64,000 nt of DNA from Bryobacteraceae bacterium (GTDB lineage: Bacteria; Acidobacteriota; Terriglobia; Bryobacterales; Bryobacteraceae), in assembly GCA_019748195.1 (NCBI GenBank), contig JAIEPW010000064.1, positions 1 through 64,000 on the forward strand. Direction: 5' to 3'. The notes beneath the pieces were generated by a model. It worked only from the letters and a program-made list of their open reading frames with translations, was not told where the DNA came from and did not search any database. Positions 39,531 through 48,064 of this stretch are shown here, piece by piece. The position numbers and the translations under genes were made by a program. Each line of letters begins with the position of its first letter. Position 1 is the first letter of the stretch.

Positions 39531-40601
39531 GTGGGCGCGAATGTCCGATCCATGGCCTCCAACGATTTCGTTTCCGTCACCATAGTGACCTACAATAGCG
39601 GCCGTTTCATCAAACGGTGTCTCGAGAGCGTTCTCGAGCAGAAATACCCGCGGATGGAAATCATTGTCATCGACAATGCCTCAACCGACGGGACGGGGGA
39701 TATCCTGGAGCAATTCGCGGGACGCTGCCGGGTTGTCTACAACGACGAGAACATCGGGTTTGCGGCGGCGCAAAACCAGGCCATCGAGCTCTCGCGCGGG
39801 AGCTGGGTGCTGACGCTGAATCCCGACGTGCTTCTGCTGCCGAACTTCATTCAGGCGCTGGTGGACGCGGGGCAATTGGATCCCAAGGCGGGCACCGTGT
39901 GCGGCAAGCTGCTGACGATTCTGGCGACATTCGACCTGCCGGAAAAGCAACTGGTGGATTCCACCGGCATTTACTTCACGCCCAACCTGCGGCATCTGGA
40001 TCGCGGCAGCCAGGAAGTGGACAACGGCCACTACCTGACGCATGAATACGTTTTCGGCGCCACCGCCGCGGCGGCGCTGTACCGGCGCGCCATGATCGAG
40101 GACATCGCGGTGCAGGGCGAGTTCTTCGATCCCGATTTCTTCGTCTACCGCGAGGACGCGGATGTCGCCTGGCGGGCGCAGCTTCTGGGCTGGCGCTGCG
40201 TTTACACTCCGCACGCTCGCGGATACCATGTGCGTAACGTGCTTCCGGGCAACCGGCGCGCGCTGCCGCCGGAAATCAACATGCACTCGGTGAAGAACCG
40301 CTTCCTGATGCGCATCAAGAACATGAGCGGCGATCTGTACCGCCGCAACTGGTGGAGCATCACGGCGCGGGACATCGTGGTGCTGGGCGCTTGCATCCTG
40401 CACGAGCACACGTCGTTGAAGGCGTTCTGGTATCTGGCGAAGAACTGGAGGCGCGTGCTGGAGAAACGCCGCGAGATCATGAATCGCCGGCGCGTCACCG
40501 ACGAGTACATCGCCGGCTGGTTCTCTTATGAGCCGGTAAGCCGTCCCGCTCCCAAGGCGAGCGCTCGCGTGCTGGCGAAGTCCCGTGCCGCCCGCGGCTA
40601 A
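39531..40601 (+). CDS. GT2 glycosyltransferase, rhamnosyltransferase-like
   Basis: The 356-residue protein contains SVTIVTYNSGRFIKRCLESVL, VIDNASTDGTGDI, NIGFAAAQNQAIELSRG and TLNPDVLLLP, with the catalytic-side motif YREDADVAWRAQLLGWRCVY. GTG 39531 is favoured because GGGGAAG lies ten bases upstream; ATG 39552 lacks one. It resembles its upstream neighbour, consistent with gene duplication. The C-terminus overlaps the next transferase by 17 bp. Confidence 0.88.
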   Translation: MGANVRSMASNDFVSVTIVTYNSGRFIKRCLESVLEQKYPRMEIIVIDNASTDGTGDILEQFAGRCRVVYNDENIGFAAAQNQAIELSRGSWVLTLNPDVLLLPNFIQALVDAGQLDPKAGTVCGKLLTILATFDLPEKQLVDSTGIYFTPNLRHLDRGSQEVDNGHYLTHEYVFGATAAAALYRRAMIEDIAVQGEFFDPDFFVYREDADVAWRAQLLGWRCVYTPHARGYHVRNVLPGNRRALPPEINMHSVKNRFLMRIKNMSGDLYRRNWWSITARDIVVLGACILHEHTSLKAFWYLAKNWRRVLEKRREIMNRRRVTDEYIAGWFSYEPVSRPAPKASARVLAKSRAARG

Positions 40602-41694
40602 GCCGCCCTTGCGGATCGCGATTCTGGGAACCCGGGGCATTCCCGCCCGTTACGGCGGTTTCGAAACCTTCGCCGAGGAACTGGGCGTCCGGCTGGCGGA
40701 GCGCGGCCACCGCGTCACCGTGTACTGCCGCGAATCGCATGACGAAACGGAGTATCGCGGCATGCGAAGGGTGACGCTGCCGACACTGCGTCACAAGTAC
40801 ACGGATACCATTGTTCACACGTTTCTTTCCACGCTGCATGTCCTGTTTCATCGCCAGGACGTGCTGCTGTACTGCAACGCCGCCAACGCGGTCTTCACCT
40901 GGATGCCGCGGCTGTTCGGCAAGCCGGTGGCGTTGAACGTCGACGGGCTGGAGCGGAATCGGAAGAAGTGGAATCGCGCGGCGAAGACGTGGTACCGCGT
41001 GTCGGAGAAGTTGTCCACCTGGTTTCCGAACGTGATCGTCACCGACGCGCGGCAGATTCAGGAGTATTATCGCGAGACCTATGCTGCGGGCTCGGTGATG
41101 ATCCCCTATGGCGCGGAGTTGGGGAAGCTCGATAGCGATGGCCAGGTGCGCGCGCTGGGGCTGGAGCGCGGGCGGTACTTCCTCTACGTCAGCCGGATGG
41201 AGCCGGAGAACAACGCGCTGCTGGTGCGGGAGGCATTCGAAAAGGTGGACACCACCTTGAAACTGGCGCTGATCGGCGATGCGCCGTACGCGCAAGAGTA
41301 CATCGCGCGGGTCCGCGACACCCGCGATCCGCGGATCGTGATGCCGGGCGCGGTTTACGGGCAGGGCTACCGCGAGCTGGGCTCGCACTGCTTTGCTTAT
41401 ATCCATGCGACCGAGGTCGGCGGCACGCATCCGGCGCTGATCGAGGCCATGGGCCGCGGCGCGTTGACGCTGTATCTCGACACGCCGGAGAACGCGGAGG
41501 TGGCGGGCGAGGCGGGGATCGCGTTCACGCCTCACAACCTGGTGGAACGCCTGCGGGAGGTGTTGGAGATGAGCGAAGCCGAACGGGGCCGGCTACGGCG
41601 ACTCGCGGAGGCTCATGTGCGTGAGCGGTATAGCTGGCAGGCGGTTACCGATGCTTATGAACGGGTGTTCGCGGCGCTGGCCGCGGCGCGCTAG
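40585..41694 (+). CDS. GT4 glycosyltransferase with DUF1972 domain
   Basis: The 369-residue GT-B enzyme starts at GTG 40585. Its N-terminal half is of the DUF1972 type (IAILGTRGIPARYGGFETFAEELG), common in rhamnosyl/fucosyltransferases of exopolysaccharide clusters. The C-terminal half has FLYVSRMEPENNALLVREAF and HATEVGGTHPALIEAMGRG, the sugar-nucleotide-binding region. It closes the run of transferases. Confidence 0.9.
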   Translation: MPPAAKPPLRIAILGTRGIPARYGGFETFAEELGVRLAERGHRVTVYCRESHDETEYRGMRRVTLPTLRHKYTDTIVHTFLSTLHVLFHRQDVLLYCNAANAVFTWMPRLFGKPVALNVDGLERNRKKWNRAAKTWYRVSEKLSTWFPNVIVTDARQIQEYYRETYAAGSVMIPYGAELGKLDSDGQVRALGLERGRYFLYVSRMEPENNALLVREAFEKVDTTLKLALIGDAPYAQEYIARVRDTRDPRIVMPGAVYGQGYRELGSHCFAYIHATEVGGTHPALIEAMGRGALTLYLDTPENAEVAGEAGIAFTPHNLVERLREVLEMSEAERGRLRRLAEAHVRERYSWQAVTDAYERVFAALAAAR

Positions 41695-41895
41695 CGCAAC
41701 CGGCGCAGCAGCACGATTCCGACCAGCGAAGCCGCGCTCATCAGCGATGCCAATTGTTCCAGCGTCAACATACTTCCGATGGTGCGGCCCGGCGGCGGAT
41801 CCGGTAAGAGCCTTTCGGTTCCGGTACCGGCGGCGCCGGCGCCGTCCCGGTTCTAGGCGAATCCGGCCAGGACCGCGCCGGAGTATGCGATTCTG

Positions 41896-43044
41896 ATGCG
41901 AATGGACCCCTTTCTCGCACACGCACGCAAGCAGCAGAAGGAGATCGAAAGCTGGATTCAGGAACTGGTGGAGTGCGAATCCCCCAGCACGGACGCCGCG
42001 GCGGTGAACCGCTTCGTGGATCTGCTGGCGTCCAAGCTGGACGGCGTGGCGCGGGTGAAGACGTTCCCCGGAGGAACCTTCGGCCGCCATATGCGGTGCG
42101 AGTTCCTCCTGAACGGCGCGAAGAAGAAGGACGGCCAGATTCTGGCCCTGGGCCATTCCGACACGGTGTACCCGCTGGGCATCCTGCCCTCCATGCCCTT
42201 CCGCAAGTCGAAAGGCCGATTGTGGGGACCCGGAACCCTGGACATGAAGGGGGGCCTGGTGCTGTTCATCTTCGCCATGCGAATTCTGCGCGATCTGGAC
42301 ATCCCGGCGCGGCGGAAGGTGGTGCTGCAGATCAACAGCGACGAGGAAGTGGGCAGCGATTCCTCGCGCGCGCTGACGGAAGAGGCGGCGCGCCAGAGCA
42401 TCGCCGTGCTGGTGCTGGAGCCCGGCACCGGGCTGAGCGGCAAGGCCAAGACCGCGCGCAAGGGCGTAGGCGACTACGAGTTGACGGTGCGCGGCGTGGC
42501 GTCGCACGCCGGCGTGGACTTCGCGGCGGGCGCGAACGCCGTGGTGGAGCTGGCGCGCCAGCTCGATCGTGTTGCCGGCTTCACGCGCTTGGAGAAGGGC
42601 ATCACGGTGAGCCCGGGCGTGGTGCGCGGCGGCACGCGCAGCAACGTGGTGCCGGCGGAGGCGTACGCGCACATCGACATCCGCGTGCCCACGATGAAGG
42701 ACGGCGCGTGGTTGGAAAAGCAGTTCCGGGGGTTGAAGCCGTTGGATCCACGCTGTTCGCTGGAGCTCACCGGCGGATTGAACCGCCCGCCGATGGAGCG
42801 GTCGGCGGGCGTGCGGAAGCTGTTCGCGCTGGCGCGGAACGCCGCCGCGGAGTTGGGCGTGGACCTGGAGGAGTCGGCGACGGGCGGCGGGTCGGACGGG
42901 AACTTCACCGCGGCGCTGGGCGTTCCGACGCTGGATGGCTTGGGCGCCGTGGGCGAAGGGGCTCACACGCCGGGGGAGAGCATTCTGGTAGACCGGATCG
43001 CGGACCGGACGGCGTTGCTGGCGAAGCTGGTGGCGAGGATCTGA
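41896..43044 (+). CDS. M20-family metallopeptidase, glutamate carboxypeptidase-like
   Basis: The 382-residue protein carries the M20 dizinc site: His and Asp in LALGHSDTVYPLG, Asp in LWGPGTLDMKGGLV, Glu-Glu in NSDEEVGSDSSR and a C-terminal GGGSDGNF. The inserted dimerisation domain spans about 180-295. It resembles carboxypeptidase G2 and related exopeptidases. No signal peptide is visible, so it is probably cytoplasmic. Start may be ATG 41896 or ATG 41902. Confidence 0.9.
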   Translation: MRMDPFLAHARKQQKEIESWIQELVECESPSTDAAAVNRFVDLLASKLDGVARVKTFPGGTFGRHMRCEFLLNGAKKKDGQILALGHSDTVYPLGILPSMPFRKSKGRLWGPGTLDMKGGLVLFIFAMRILRDLDIPARRKVVLQINSDEEVGSDSSRALTEEAARQSIAVLVLEPGTGLSGKAKTARKGVGDYELTVRGVASHAGVDFAAGANAVVELARQLDRVAGFTRLEKGITVSPGVVRGGTRSNVVPAEAYAHIDIRVPTMKDGAWLEKQFRGLKPLDPRCSLELTGGLNRPPMERSAGVRKLFALARNAAAELGVDLEESATGGGSDGNFTAALGVPTLDGLGAVGEGAHTPGESILVDRIADRTALLAKLVARI

Positions 43045-43046
43045 AC

Positions 43047-43439
43047 ATGAAGACCATGCGCCGGTCGGTCCATCCCGGCCCCTTCCTGCGAACGGAGATC
43101 AGCGAAGGCCATGGCCTTTTAATCACAGAAACGGCAGGGATACTGGGCTTGTCTCGCCGCCGCCTTTCCGCTCTCCTGAACGCCAAGGCAGCCCAGCACG
43201 GCGACATGGCCCTGCGATTTGAAAAAGCTATTGGCGTCGACATGGACACCTTGATCCGAATGCAGGGCTCGTACGACATTGCCAGCACGCGCAATCGGGC
43301 CAAGTGGATTCAGGTGAGACATTACCGGCCGCCGACGGCCGGTGTAAGAAGGGAAGGCATCCCTCGCGACGGTCAGCGCGTCAGACTTGGTGAAGACGGC
43401 CTTGGCAAGGGCGGAGGCGAGGTTCTAAGCTTGACTTAG
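43047..43439 (+). CDS. HigA-like helix-turn-helix protein without a HigB partner
   Basis: The 130-residue frame begins MKTMRRSVHPGPFLRTEI, the usual opening of HigA antitoxins (HPGE..R.E), followed by the helix-turn-helix LLITETAGILGLSRRRLSALLNAK and MALRFEKAIGVDMDTLIRMQ. The last 40 residues (after VRHYRP) are Gly/Arg-rich and unlike the family. The gene upstream is a peptidase, so the HigB toxin normally preceding higA is missing. It is an orphan antitoxin or a regulator of the ATPase-DUF4276 pair that starts 15 bp downstream. Confidence 0.75.
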   Translation: MKTMRRSVHPGPFLRTEISEGHGLLITETAGILGLSRRRLSALLNAKAAQHGDMALRFEKAIGVDMDTLIRMQGSYDIASTRNRAKWIQVRHYRPPTAGVRREGIPRDGQRVRLGEDGLGKGGGEVLSLT

Positions 43440-43454
43440 ACAAAGGTTCTCCAA

Positions 43455-44606
43455 GTGCGGCACTTCACCCGATTATCAGTCACGGGTTTTCGGAGGCTCT
43501 CGAGCATCGAGGTAGAACTCCGGGACCTTGCGGTCCTGATCGGGGCGAACGGATCCGGCAAGTCCTCAATCTTGGACGTGCTGTCTCTTCTGTCCAGATC
43601 AGCCAAAGGAGAACTCGCAAAAACCCTGCAGGAACATGGAGGTTTGCTGAACATCCTCACCGCGGGTTCCGGCGAACGACTAAATTTCGACATCACCTGC
43701 AGCGCTGGGAATGACGACGAGCTTGAATATCTGCTATCGATCGCACCCGCGATGGGCGGCGCCGGACATGAAGTAAGTACCGAGTGGCTTCGCGGTCCGA
43801 TATTAGGGATGCGCGTGATACGACGCAACAATCGTGTGCAGTATCCACGAGACGGTGTGGAGCATTTGAACGACGACGAAATCCAAATGGCTTTTTGGAA
43901 GCTGGACCTTCAGGAAACAGCGTTGTCCCAGGTACCGAGGAATCATCTCCAAGCGGAGCAGTTTCGCAGCACGCTCGCTTCCAGTGCTCATTACCATGAC
44001 TTGGACGTAAGCGCTCGATCCCCAGTCCGATTGCCGCAGATGTTGAGGCCGGGATTTCTGCCCGGACCGCAAGCTGAAGATCTTGTCTCCTGTCTATTCA
44101 ACCTGAGGGAGTCTCACCAACAGCGATTCGAGGCCCTGCAGAATGCCGTTCGAGCAGGGTTTCCGCAGTTTGAACGCTTCGAATTCGTTAGCGTTAGCGC
44201 GGGGACCATAGCCCTGGGTTGGAAGGAGCACCAGTACTCGCGTTCTCTGTTCATGAATCAACTCTCAGGGGGAACCCTGCGGTTCCTCTGGCTGGCTACG
44301 ATCCTTTTGAGCCCCGATCTCCCGGCGTTGACCCTCATCGACGAACCGGAGGTCAGCCTGCATCCCGAGCTGCTAAGTATTGTCGCCGACCTTTTGAGGG
44401 ACGCGGCAGAGCGGAGCCAGGTCATTGTGGCCACCCATTCGGACCGGCTCGTTCGTTTCCTTAAGCCCGAAGAAGTGATCACGGTGGACTTGGAGGAGGG
44501 AAGTGCTTCGCTTCGCTGGGCGGATACGCTCGACCTGAATGAGTGGTTGACGGATTACACGCTGGACGAACTGTGGATGGGCGGCCATTTGGGCGGGCGG
44601 TCTTGA
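43455..44606 (+). CDS. AAA_21/OLD-type ATPase, putative defence-system component
   Basis: The 383-residue protein is an SMC/ABC-like ATPase: Walker A IGANGSGKSSIL at about 29-40, a long middle insertion, signature-like LSGGTLRFLWLATIL, Walker B LTLIDEPEVSLHP and switch region VIVATHSDRLVRF. There is no nuclease domain of its own. The stop is overlapped by the TTG start of a DUF4276 gene. ATPases of this type coupled to a Toprim-like partner occur in anti-phage systems such as PARIS, Gabija and OLD, so a defence role is plausible. The predicted function is inferred from architecture and context. Confidence 0.8.
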   Translation: MRHFTRLSVTGFRRLSSIEVELRDLAVLIGANGSGKSSILDVLSLLSRSAKGELAKTLQEHGGLLNILTAGSGERLNFDITCSAGNDDELEYLLSIAPAMGGAGHEVSTEWLRGPILGMRVIRRNNRVQYPRDGVEHLNDDEIQMAFWKLDLQETALSQVPRNHLQAEQFRSTLASSAHYHDLDVSARSPVRLPQMLRPGFLPGPQAEDLVSCLFNLRESHQQRFEALQNAVRAGFPQFERFEFVSVSAGTIALGWKEHQYSRSLFMNQLSGGTLRFLWLATILLSPDLPALTLIDEPEVSLHPELLSIVADLLRDAAERSQVIVATHSDRLVRFLKPEEVITVDLEEGSASLRWADTLDLNEWLTDYTLDELWMGGHLGGRS

Positions 44607-45205
44607 AGATCGCGTGGATCGTAGAGGGAAAAACAGAAAAGGCGCTGAAGCCGCCACTGATCGCGTTCCTGGAATCGCGCTTGAAAGGTTCCATGCCCAG
44701 GCTCGATGTCCGGTCCGAGAACGGGCTGGTGCCGAAGGAAGCAAGGCTGAAGCGGCTTGTGGAAGGGTTGCTCCAACAGGGCTACGGCGCAGTCATCGCG
44801 CTGACTGACGTCTATACCGGGCAACGCAGCTTCGCGGACGCGGCCGATGCCAAGTCAAAGCTTAACGGCTGGGTTGGCGCTAATCCAAAGTTCCACGCTC
44901 ACGCGGCGCAGTTCGAATTCGAAGCCTGGCTTCTTCCTTACTGGCCCAGGATTCAGAAACAAGCCGGGAGCAGCCGCAAGCCACCCAGTGGCAACCCGGA
45001 GAACGTGAATCATCACAAACCGCCGAGCAAGTTGCTCGAAGAGGTCTTTCGGACGGGCAACCCGGGACGACGGTATCTTAAGACGATCGATTCCATCGCG
45101 ATCCTGCGGGATCAGGACATATCGCTTGCTGCCGCCGAATGCACTGAACTTAAGGCGTTTTTGAATACCATCCTGACGGTTTGCGGTGCGCAGCCGCTGC
45201 CGTAG
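44603..45205 (+). CDS. DUF4276 protein, Toprim-like partner of the AAA ATPase
   Basis: The 200-residue product is read from TTG 44603 overlapping the ATPase stop (TTGA), giving MKIAWIVEGKTEKALKPPL. The IVEGKTE motif near the N-terminus, Asp in VIALTDVYTG and the family hallmark QFEFEAWLLP fit DUF4276, a Toprim-like family that could cut or bind nucleic acid with a divalent metal. The C-terminal half holds a basic segment (KPPSKLLEEVFR) and AILRDQDISL. It ends 1 bp from the convergent glmS stop. Nuclease activity is inferred. Confidence 0.78.
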   Translation: MKIAWIVEGKTEKALKPPLIAFLESRLKGSMPRLDVRSENGLVPKEARLKRLVEGLLQQGYGAVIALTDVYTGQRSFADAADAKSKLNGWVGANPKFHAHAAQFEFEAWLLPYWPRIQKQAGSSRKPPSGNPENVNHHKPPSKLLEEVFRTGNPGRRYLKTIDSIAILRDQDISLAAAECTELKAFLNTILTVCGAQPLP

Positions 45206-47059
45206 CTACTCCACCGTCACGCTCTTCGCCAGGTTCCTCGGCTGATCCACATCGCATCCCCGCCGCACCGCGATGTGATACGCGAGCAACTGCAGCGGCA
45301 CGATCTCCAGAATCGGCAGCAGCAGTTCATTGGTCACCGGGATTTCGATGACGTGATCCGCCATGCGCTTGATTTCCTCGTCGCCTTCGTTGGCAAGGGC
45401 CACCACGATCCCCTCGCGAGCCTTCACTTCCTGAATATTGGACAGCGTTTTCTCGTACAGCAGCTTGCTCGATTCGCTGTTCGGGTCGTGCGTGGCCAGC
45501 ACCACCACCGGAAGATTCTCATCGATCAGCGCATTGGGGCCGTGCTTCATCTCCCCCGCCGGATAGCCCTCGGCGTGAATGTAGGAGATCTCCTTCAGCT
45601 TCAACGCGCCTTCCAGCGCGATCGGGAAATGAATGCCCCGCCCCAGGTACAGGAAATCCGCCGCGCGGAACAGCTTGCGCGTCAGGTCGTCGTAAACCGC
45701 CTCATGCCGCAGCAGCGTCTCCAGCTTGCCGGGAAGCTCCGCAAGCTCCTGCACCAGCCTCCGCGATTCCTCCGCCGACAGCACGCCGCGAGCCTGGCCC
45801 AGGTACATCGCCAGAATGAACAGCGCCGTCAACTGCGCCGTGAACGCCTTGGTGGACGCCACGCCGATTTCCGGACCGGCGTGCGTGATTATGGTTCCCG
45901 CGGCTTCGCGCGTGATCATGGAACCCACTACGTTGCAGATCGCCAGCGATTTCGAGCCCTTTTGCTTGGCCTCCCGCTGCGCCGCCAGCGTATCCGCGGT
46001 CTCGCCCGACTGCGAGATCACGATGGTCAGCGTTTCCTTGCCCAGAATCGGATCGCGATACCGAAATTCGCTGCCATAATCGACTTCGACGGGGATACGG
46101 GCCAGGCGCTCGATCATGAACTTGCCCGCCAGCCCCGCATGCCAGCTCGTTCCGCACGCCACGATCTTCACGTTGGTGAATTGCTCGAAGTCCTTCGGCC
46201 GGATGTCCATCTCATCCAGGAACACGCGGCCCGATTCCTGGCCCACGCGCCCCAGCATGGTGTCGCGGACGGCCCGCGGCTGCTCAAAGATCTCCTTGAG
46301 CATGAAATGCTTGTAGCCGCCCTTTTCGGCCATGATGGGATCCCACAGAATGTGGGTCACCTGCCGCTTCACGGGGCGGCCCTCGAAATCCATCAGCCGG
46401 ACGCCTTCGGGCGTCAGAACCGCGACGTCGCCGTCGTTCAGGAAGAACATGTCGCGGGTGTGATTCAGGATCGCCGGAACGTCGCTGGCGACAAAGTACT
46501 CGCTCTCGCCCAAGCCGATCACCACCGGCGGACCCTGCCGCACGGCGACAATCTTGCGCGGGTCCTGCTTGGAAATGATGGCGAGCGCGAACACCCCGCG
46601 CAGTTCCCGCACGGCGTCCCGCACGGCGCGCTCCAGGTTGCCGTCGAAATACTTTTCCACCAGGTGCGCGACGATCTCGGTATCGGTTTCGCTCGCGAAC
46701 TTGTGGCCCTCGGATTCCAACTGGCGTTTCAGCGTCAGGTAGTTTTCGATGATCCCGTTGTGGACCACCACGATGTTGCCGCTGCCGTCGCGATGGGGAT
46801 GGGCATTCTCCTCGGTGGGACGGCCGTGGGTTGCCCAGCGGGTATGTCCGATTCCGTACCCGCCGCCGGTCGGCGACAGACGCAGCGTCTCTTCCAGGTT
46901 CCTCAGCTTGCCGGAAGCGCGCCGGACCGCCAGGTCTCCCGACTCTTCCAGAACCGCGATTCCAGCCGAGTCATAGCCGCGGTATTCCAGCCGCCGCAGA
47001 CCGTCCACGATGATCGGGACCGCCTGCTTTTCCCCGATGTAGCCGACAATGCCGCACAT
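45206..47059 (-). CDS. glmS: Glutamine-fructose-6-phosphate aminotransferase
   Basis: The 617-residue enzyme makes glucosamine-6-phosphate, the entry to cell-wall amino sugars. Cys2 (MCGIVGYIG) is the glutaminase nucleophile, with [21 protein letters not shown] and HNGIIENY in the same domain. Two SIS sugar-isomerase domains follow ([29 protein letters not shown]; then [23 protein letters not shown]) and the C-terminus is [11 protein letters not shown]. It lies 15 bp downstream of purS on the same strand. Confidence 0.97.
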
Positions 47060-47074
47060 AATAGTTAAATCGTC

Positions 47075-47329
47075 CTAAGTAGCCAGAAACTCCACCCGGT
47101 AGTCTTCAATCACCGGATTCGTAAGCACTTCCCGCGCGATCTGGTCCAGCTCGCGGGCGGCGTCGTCGCGGTCGGCAGCCTTCAGCTCGATCTCGAAGAA
47201 CTTGCCCTGGCGCACCCCGGAAACCGACGGATGGCCGAGACCGTGCAACGCTCTCTGGATCGTCTGCCCTTGCGGATCGAGGACCGTGGGCTTGAAGGAA
47301 ACGTAGACGCGCGCTTTCACAGCTTCCAT
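47075..47329 (-). CDS. purS: Phosphoribosylformylglycinamidine synthase subunit PurS
   Basis: The 84-residue protein matches PurS: KARVYVSFKPTVLDPQGQTIQRALHGLG, the conserved VRQGKFFEIEL and the C-terminal NPVIEDYRVEF. It bridges PurL and PurQ in the FGAM synthase complex. The usual downstream purQ is absent here and replaced by glmS. Confidence 0.93.
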   Translation of the reverse strand: MEAVKARVYVSFKPTVLDPQGQTIQRALHGLGHPSVSGVRQGKFFEIELKAADRDDAARELDQIAREVLTNPVIEDYRVEFLAT

Positions 47330-47359
47330 TATAGAGGCGGGTGGCGGCTGAACTGTTGC

Positions 47360-48064
47360 TCAGGGGATGATCTCGAATTCCACGGTGAGGCGGACCTCCA
47401 GTCTCACCGCTCCGTCGCCGGTTCTCAATAGTGGAAGCAGTTGAAGCAGGTTGTTCAAATCCGGAAGAGCGGGAGCCGCCCCGACGCCGCCCACCCCCGC
47501 CTCGACCACCGGCACTTCCTGCGCGAGAACCACGCTGCCCAGCCGGAGCCCGAGCCCTTGGGCGATCGCCTCCGCCTTGGCTCGCGCCTTCTGGCCGGCC
47601 ACACGGAGAGCCTGCGCCTTCACGGAATCCTCATCGCGATAGCCGAGCGTCACCCCTGCGAGAGTTCCACCGGCGCGGATTCCGGCATCCACGACGCTGC
47701 CCAGCGCATTCAGGTCTCGGACGACAGCTTGAACGGTCGTCGTGGCGACATATGCAAGTTGAACGGGTGGGGGTGAGGGCCGTTGTGTCGCAAATGCCTG
47801 CGACAGCGTGTAGCCGATCACCCGGACTTCCGCGTTTCCGCCCAGAATGCGCCGCAGTTCGGTCATCAACCTTGAGGCGACGCTTGCATTTGATGTGGCG
47901 GCTTCGGACGCCGTTCGAGCCTCGGATTGCGCACTGAACACGATGCGAGCCTGGTCCGGCGAAGCGGTCGCGGAGCCCTCGCCGATGGAGCGGATCGTCC
48001 TGCGCGCGGGAAGCTGCTGGGCAGCCGAGACGGTTGCAATGAGAAGAAAAGCCAGGAGTCTCAT
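47360..48064 (-). CDS. SIMPL-domain (DUF541) exported protein, copy 1
   Basis: The 234-residue product has a signal peptide (MRLLAFLLIATVSAAQQ) and a SIMPL domain: IRSIGEGSATASPDQARIVFSA, VQAVVRDLNALGSVVDAGIRAGGTLAGV and RVAGQKARAKAEAIAQGLGLRLG. SIMPL proteins are periplasmic or surface proteins of oligomeric ring type with little-known function (oxidative-stress roles reported for YggE). A paralogue follows upstream on the same strand. Confidence 0.88.
   Translation of the reverse strand: MRLLAFLLIATVSAAQQLPARRTIRSIGEGSATASPDQARIVFSAQSEARTASEAATSNASVASRLMTELRRILGGNAEVRVIGYTLSQAFATQRPSPPPVQLAYVATTTVQAVVRDLNALGSVVDAGIRAGGTLAGVTLGYRDEDSVKAQALRVAGQKARAKAEAIAQGLGLRLGSVVLAQEVPVVEAGVGGVGAAPALPDLNNLLQLLPLLRTGDGAVRLEVRLTVEFEIIP

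Follow-up and report, generated by a model that had tools for sequence, protein, structure and literature searches.

A divergent HEC-01-type pair of an OLD-like ATPase and a DUF4276 protein of predicted Toprim fold in a Bryobacteraceae genome

Introduction

Among the described systems that join an ABC-type ATPase to a Toprim domain, GajA of Gabija is a fused protein that acts with the helicase GajB, OLD proteins likewise carry both parts in one chain, and PARIS has them on separate genes (AriA and AriB). DUF4276 (PF14103) is a family of unknown function, and our full-text literature search found no paper on DUF4276 or PF14103. TOPRIM-linked OLD-ABC operons have been described as a class (PMC12839542, excerpt). 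Moreover, candidates found through 'guilt-by-embedding' have been termed Hma-embedded candidates (HEC), several of which are said to be active, HEC-06 by name, with HEC-01 not being named in the excerpt concerned (PMC12988326, which cites the 2024 preprint of Payne et al., doi 10.1101/2024.01.29.577857). As for HEC-01, none of the matches listed in our search was on defence by title, and a paper elsewhere is possible. Here, we describe a pair of genes for an ATPase and a DUF4276 protein from a Bryobacteraceae bacterium and compare it with these systems.

Results

The locus and its match to HEC-01

The window, by which we mean the whole 64,000-nucleotide stretch of DNA analysed, holds the pair together with an upstream HigA-like gene (Table 1). 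The HigA-like ORF starts 2 nt after the M20 gene, and the DUF4276 ORF abuts the stop of the glmS-like gene. A sequence-only reading had picked out these ORFs along with their motifs, and all of the latter are present, these being GANGSGKSS, LSGGT, IDEPEVSLHP, and ATHSDR in the ATPase and WIVEGKTE, LTD, and FEFEAWLL in the partner; the TTGA that it saw shared between the ATPase stop and the DUF4276 start is exact (44603-44606). In the Pfam scan, the ATPase is AAA_21 (1.8e-30), with additional matches to the SMC_N and, weakly, the RecF models, and the partner is PF14103 (3.3e-23), its sole Pfam family up to E 0.1. The six flanking genes (39531-43044 and 45206-48064), which encode two glycosyltransferases, M20, the glmS-like protein, PurS, and a SIMPL protein, gave no match to any PADLOC model at E 0.001, those for Hma and mad included.

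Table 1. Features of the locus and its immediate flanks (positions in the window)
Feature	Position	Strand	Remarks
Peptidase M20 gene	41896..43044	+	Upstream flank, outside module
HigA-like HTH protein	43047..43439	+	130 aa; NCBIfam TIGR02607; ends 15 nt before ATPase
OLD/SMC-like ABC ATPase (AAA_21)	43455..44606	+	383 aa, GTG start; HEC-01A family; predicted sensor/regulator
DUF4276 protein	44603..45205	+	200 aa, TTG start; predicted Toprim nuclease; divergent HEC-01B
glmS-like gene (SIS + glutamine amidotransferase domains)	45206..47059	-	Convergent downstream flank, outside module

Against the profiles of PADLOC-DB, the ATPase matches HEC-01A (PDLC04175) from end to end, with 241.9 bits and an E-value of 2.5e-72 over residues 3-382 of 383, and the DUF4276 protein matches HEC-01B (PDLC04188) weakly, with 35.4 bits and 2.2e-9 over residues 3-192 of 200. 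HEC-01B is a set of many models that span the diversity of DUF4276, and all nine DUF4276 proteins taken from other loci match at least one of them, seven strongly (1.7e-65 or better, 219-313 bits). The relatives of the window protein (L003 and L004), on the other hand, reach merely 2.9e-15 and 1.2e-9. Because the HEC-01B scores of the window protein and its relatives are low against those of the others, we assign the pair as a divergent HEC-01, and its DUF4276 protein to a divergent subfamily, an assignment by profile scores against PADLOC-DB v2.0.0 models and not by PADLOC's own acceptance thresholds. The pair thus belongs to an already catalogued, little-studied candidate phage-defence system, of which the window has one more, divergent copy, and the earlier proposal of an undescribed immune system falls away, since PADLOC-DB already has the pair as HEC-01.

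In gene families and gene order, the window is the same as HEC-01, though it differs in having neither Hma nor another defence model in the six flanking genes. We take Hma embedding to be the route of discovery and not something required of each copy, so its absence here weakens the defence reading but not the family identity. A second HEC-01 pair is found in the same genome (G000:C119:49670-50200, with L002 and L028:9138-9740), and its DUF4276 protein, which carries the motif D-A-D, matches HEC-01B strongly (1.7e-65).

Pairing and co-inheritance of the two genes

To follow the pair beyond the window, we used a sample of 396 genomes of the phylum, its own genome included, along with 14 control genomes. 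PF14103 was found in 55 of the 396 at E 0.001 (48 over the cut-off) and in none of the controls. The 78 loci drawn from this comprise 75 of the 78 over-cut-off places and three database loci, and in 74 of them the DUF4276 gene is preceded on its strand by an ATPase gene of the same family; the four exceptions (L087, L137, L151, and L153) have a contig end within 120 nt on the ATPase side. Spacing is tight, with 63 of the 74 overlapping or abutting, 71 lying within 12 nt, and three at 61-159 nt, as counted from longest-ORF starts and with two short ATPase ORFs (98 and 269 aa) among the 74. In the reverse direction, starting from 28 ATPase matches, loci were available for the window and nine others. 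Seven of these nine have DUF4276 downstream; in L019 there is none, and L011 is truncated where its contig ends. The 34 control loci contain no DUF4276 and three weak ATPase matches (best 6e-11).

Moreover, the distances between the ATPases correlate with those between their partners (Mantel r = 0.898 for 70 pairs), a value reached by none of 2000 label permutations, the best of which gave 0.10. As related sequences are not independent, we read this correlation as support for co-inheritance and not as a P value. The ATPase and the DUF4276 protein are therefore a genuine two-gene unit, and the coupling proposed earlier between an SMC/OLD-like ATPase and a Toprim-like DUF4276 protein is borne out. 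One HEC-01 pair may have ATPases in tandem, since the ORF immediately past its ATPase gene (L124:7661-10175) is of the ATPase family too.

The ATPase site is well kept among the 72 partner ATPases of at least 300 aa, the window included. Here, Walker A Gly30 and Lys36 are found in 72/72, Walker B Glu297 in 71/72, signature residues Ser271 and Gly273 in 71/72 and 72/72, and Gln322 in 70/72, with position 328 being His in 52 and Gln in the other 20. Within the signature, the window has Gly272, as opposed to Asp in 64/72. The structure model of the window ATPase is poor and unusable (pLDDT 54.6).

Fold and predicted metal site of the DUF4276 protein

For the DUF4276 protein, AlphaFold2 gave a confident model, with a pLDDT of 90.7 and a pTM of 0.88. 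Its top match by Foldseek is the Toprim region of a class 2 OLD protein (6nk8_A, 7.7e-4), the only one below 0.001, with TM values of 0.46-0.51 for the two chains, and the fifth is a chain of the PARIS complex (3.6e-3), which we take to be AriB. Structural comparison with VIA gave a Z of 10.1 against OLD 6nk8_B (166 residues, 3.8 A), followed by 9.9 for 2p62, 8.6-8.9 for XccOLD, 8.1 for GajA, 7.4 for the PARIS chain, and 5.6 for retron Eco2; since presumably unrelated proteins reach 6.6, a Z below 8 may by itself signify a mere common arrangement. The entry 2p62 (PH0156), almost equal to OLD in its match to the model, is the solved structure of a hypothetical protein from an archaeon. By sequence, neither the window DUF4276 protein nor a 29-row profile found anything credible in the PDB. 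In a viral structure library, nothing fell under E 0.001, with the best being a RloB-like protein at 6.3e-3. Judging from the model, the DUF4276 protein appears to adopt a Toprim fold that resembles the nuclease domains of OLD, GajA, and AriB.

The two-metal site of BpOLD consists of Glu400, Asp455, and Asp457 together with Glu404, Thr506, and Glu508, with Lys562 nearby (PMC6755086, excerpt). In the window protein, Glu8, Asp69, Tyr71, Glu12, Glu105, Glu107, and Lys160 follow the same order. Residue 1 of the model aligns with residue 393 of 6nk8_B and residue 19 of 8ux9_A, and these alignment starts, taken without gaps, place Glu8 on the catalytic Glu400 of BpOLD and Glu26 of AriB, the Ala mutant of the latter yielding no cleavage fragments (PMC12409363, excerpt). 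Matched by such offsets and by residue order, Glu8/Glu12, Asp69, Glu105/Glu107, and Lys160 would fit the BpOLD two-metal site. Among 74 DUF4276 proteins, the window's included, the conserved residues are Glu107 (74), Asp69 (72), Glu8 (70), Glu105 (56), and Lys160 (51).

The second acid of the DxD motif is more variable, and position 71 is Asp in 32, Tyr in 27 (the window among them), Glu in 11, and another residue in four, making it Asp or Glu in 43/74. With Tyr71 as the second DxD residue, metal coordination must differ from that in BpOLD. Position 105 is an acid (Glu or Asp) in all 27 Tyr71 proteins and Glu in 31 of the 47 others, an association that fits compensation and equally fits shared descent.

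Distribution, acquisition, and neighbourhood

The module has a GC content of 57.9%, compared with 61.8 +/- 2.1% for slices of the window, and 7 of the 310 overlapping slices (some of them overlapping the module itself) are as low; its GC3 of 0.65-0.71 falls short of the 0.83-0.90 seen in three flanking genes. Matches to the window DUF4276 protein occur in 4 of the 396 phylum genomes (its own, one at 55%, and two at 32-33%), with none in two other same-family genomes listed in the sample, and further ones occur in Planctomycetota MAGs at 52% (Planctomycetia) and 37% and in another bacterium at 49%. The atypical GC3 and this patchy distribution suggest that the module was probably acquired, though a same-family genome with a 46% ATPase, cut at the contig end, leaves recent transfer from afar not proven. 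The M20 gene has a match in 35 of 41 genomes, its own included. In 24 loci from relatives that have it, flanks of at most 1.5 kb show neither glmS nor the pair next to it. Such short flanks, with almost nothing downstream in at least L061 and L082, make the ancestral junction undefinable. No long direct repeat flanks the module.

Phage and plasmid records gave no match to the window DUF4276 protein, though more remote DUF4276 genes do occur on plasmids. Relatives of the ATPase were found in 3 phage and 212 plasmid records, all below 60% identity. Among six such phage or plasmid records, DUF4276 adjoins the ATPase in L154, L156, and L158 and is absent from L155, L157, and L159, so distant ATPases occur without the partner. 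One of the latter three is phage RCS47, near a beta-lactamase gene, and these may be single-gene or different-partner versions. Of the three plasmid pairs, one has a methyltransferase on one side and a helicase on the other (L156, Aeromonas), one is flanked by a methyltransferase and a Mrr protein (L158, Ideonella), and one directly follows VapBC (L154, Acinetobacter pTR11_2), the last on an 11-kb mobilisable plasmid that also has a tetracycline resistance gene. Four scans of viral contigs, with the window ATPase and DUF4276 protein among the queries, found no relatives. A query from the L104 subfamily found two IMG/VR viral contigs (L160 and L161), each with an ATPase/DUF4276 pair, and the module may hence travel in phages or prophages.

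A scan for defence islands at E 1e-20 covered 170/273 neighbour ORFs (two sets) and 88/136 control ORFs. It matched 103 and 117 PADLOC models in the neighbour sets and 32 in the control, as counts of models and not of proteins, with rows from related genomes not being independent. The neighbour counts are also inflated, in the first set by the pair's own ATPase (L101) and in the second by other ATPase-family ORFs (L115 and L124), with two further ORFs overlapping the ATPase in another frame (L090 and L102), and the ORF picker includes shadow ORFs. The best 25 models of each neighbour set include ones for kinases and for restriction, specificity, methylase, SNF2, and UvrD proteins, and the best 25 of the 32 in the control are mostly for kinases, along with PglW, MkoA, and RtcR. 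A Pfam scan, which took in the control and the first neighbour set, shows that many of the families flanking the phylum pairs are housekeeping or ordinary ones. Enrichment of defence genes near pairs in the phylum is modest at most. The sequence-only reading would have been undermined by lost catalytic motifs or by pairs sitting mainly in core-genome positions; the motifs are conserved and the distribution is patchy, though this copy and many of the phylum pairs do lie among ordinary genes.

Comparison with known systems

Beyond HEC-01, the resemblance to PARIS lies in the separate ATPase and Toprim genes, the structural match to the presumed AriB chain, and the placing of Glu8 on its catalytic residue. 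Nonetheless, the window partner has no DUF4435 match and, with 200 aa, is shorter than the approximately 306 resolved residues of AriB, while the ATPase scores far better on HEC-01A than on AriA (2.5e-72 versus 3.2e-29). The parallel with PARIS and OLD drawn earlier thus stands for the logic of the system, whereas membership in PARIS does not, as the partner shows PF14103 alone, and we rejected filing the pair there.

Class 2 OLD (BpOLD and XccOLD) offers the best structural match for the Toprim part and the same E..E, D, ExE, K order of the two-metal site. However, OLD is one fused protein and the window has two ORFs separated by a stop with the TTGA overlap, and Tyr replaces the second DxD acid, with the Thr506 position apparently being Glu105. 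For having ATPase and Toprim in two ORFs, a filing under fused OLD (classes 1-3) was rejected. Gabija is alike in the Toprim fold and ABC ATPase partner domain of GajA, but GajA is fused, and with no PADLOC match, and hence no GajB helicase, in the six flanking genes, this filing was also rejected. MADS shares a family resemblance of the ATPase through Mad3, although its 98 bits are far under the NCBIfam cut-off of 420 and no mad gene is matched in the flanking six, which led us to reject MADS as well. WonAB from V. cholerae WASA-1 is similar as a two-gene system of an OLD-ABC ATPase and a small nuclease located 3' of a regulator gene, but it is linked to a nuclease of restriction-enzyme fold and not to a Toprim one (PMC12137116, excerpt).

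Discussion

Starting from what is computed, namely the pairing, the correlated divergence, the fold, the conserved site, and the catalogue match, we infer how the pair may dimerise, be triggered, find its substrate, and act in defence. We consider it fairly probable that this is a HEC-01-type, OLD-like pair in which an ATPase sensor gates a Toprim nuclease for infection-triggered defence, with a logic like that of OLD and PARIS. The ATPase would dimerise and bind ATP through its complete ABC/SMC-type site, and would hold or gate its small DUF4276 partner as AriA gates AriB. The latter would act as a Toprim nuclease in the manner of OLD and AriB, and Glu8/Glu12, Asp69, Glu107, and Lys160 would make up its two-metal site. 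A phage-derived trigger might then change the state of the ATPase, by which the nuclease is released or activated, and cleavage of nucleic acid, be it host tRNA as with AriB or DNA as with OLD, would stop the infection. Counting against a defence role, an archaeal ATPase of the OLD family has a cell-cycle function (PMC12796447, excerpt).

Alternatively, the pair could be a selfish, toxin-antitoxin-like stabiliser, in which the DUF4276 nuclease is a toxin restrained by the ATPase and is maintained because it perpetuates itself, not because it wards off phage. The tight two-gene operon, the pair beside VapBC on a small mobilisable plasmid, and the annotation of the AAA_21 Pfam model as a putative AbiEii type IV toxin all suit this, as does the analogous WonAB, whose nuclease is toxic alone and not as a pair (PMC12137116, excerpt). 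However, WonAB does defend against phage, and nuclease toxicity therefore cannot separate a stabiliser from a defence system; the label Hma-embedded candidate itself places the family with defence operons (PMC12988326, excerpt), and two plasmid copies are within restriction-type clusters, all of which makes a pure stabiliser rather improbable to us. A housekeeping or DNA-repair module similar to RecF/RecR, with an SMC-type ATPase and a Toprim partner but no part in immunity, would agree with the ATPase matching SMC_N and weakly RecF, with the ordinary genes around the window copy and many others, and with comparable contig positions (by coordinates only) in L086, L089, and L096, which come from three genomes of a single genus. 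Set against this are the patchy occurrence of PF14103 in the phylum and its absence from the controls, the atypical GC3, and the lack of the pair beside the M20 gene in the relatives' loci, short as their flanks are, and such a role seems quite improbable.

The HigA-like gene raises another prospect, that of a three-gene unit in which its product would serve to repress the ATPase/nuclease operon as a dedicated regulator. It is on the same strand as the ATPase gene at a gap of 15 nt, its product matches TIGR02607 (antidote_HigA) over residues 4-83 with 56.6 bits for a cut-off of 47.7, and a conserved putative regulator is present upstream of wonAB (PMC12137116, excerpt). Yet none of the 77 other loci, some with little upstream sequence, has an adjoining HigA-like homologue, and the only two other HigA-like matches (L111 and L117) are each more than 4 kb from the pair. 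Moreover, residues 84-130 lie outside the matched antitoxin region, meaning that the gene may be decayed or a run-on. We accordingly rejected it as a part of the module, which the sequence-only reading had it to be, and regard a three-gene unit as distinctly unlikely; the gene is probably a chance or locally recruited neighbour and a possible operon regulator. As to a HigB toxin beside it, the gene directly upstream is that of peptidase M20. A related reading puts the window pair in a large D-x-Y class of HEC-01, where Tyr71 would be compensated by the acid at 105 to give a nuclease of altered metal or substrate use (RNA-directed, for instance), with the window operon perhaps under the control of a recruited HigA-like repressor, a combination that we think unlikely as a whole.

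Returning to the reading of a HEC-01-type pair with an ATPase-gated nuclease, its meaning for the window itself is an ordinary result, that is, a divergent copy of a known candidate in a genome with a second HEC-01 copy. For the family, the strict pairing with an OLD-like ATPase, the correlated divergence, and the Toprim fold with its acidic site would make DUF4276 a concrete nuclease candidate, and HEC-01 would thereby be placed among split ATPase-Toprim systems such as PARIS, with the split between D-x-Y and D-x-D forms becoming a simple mutational question.
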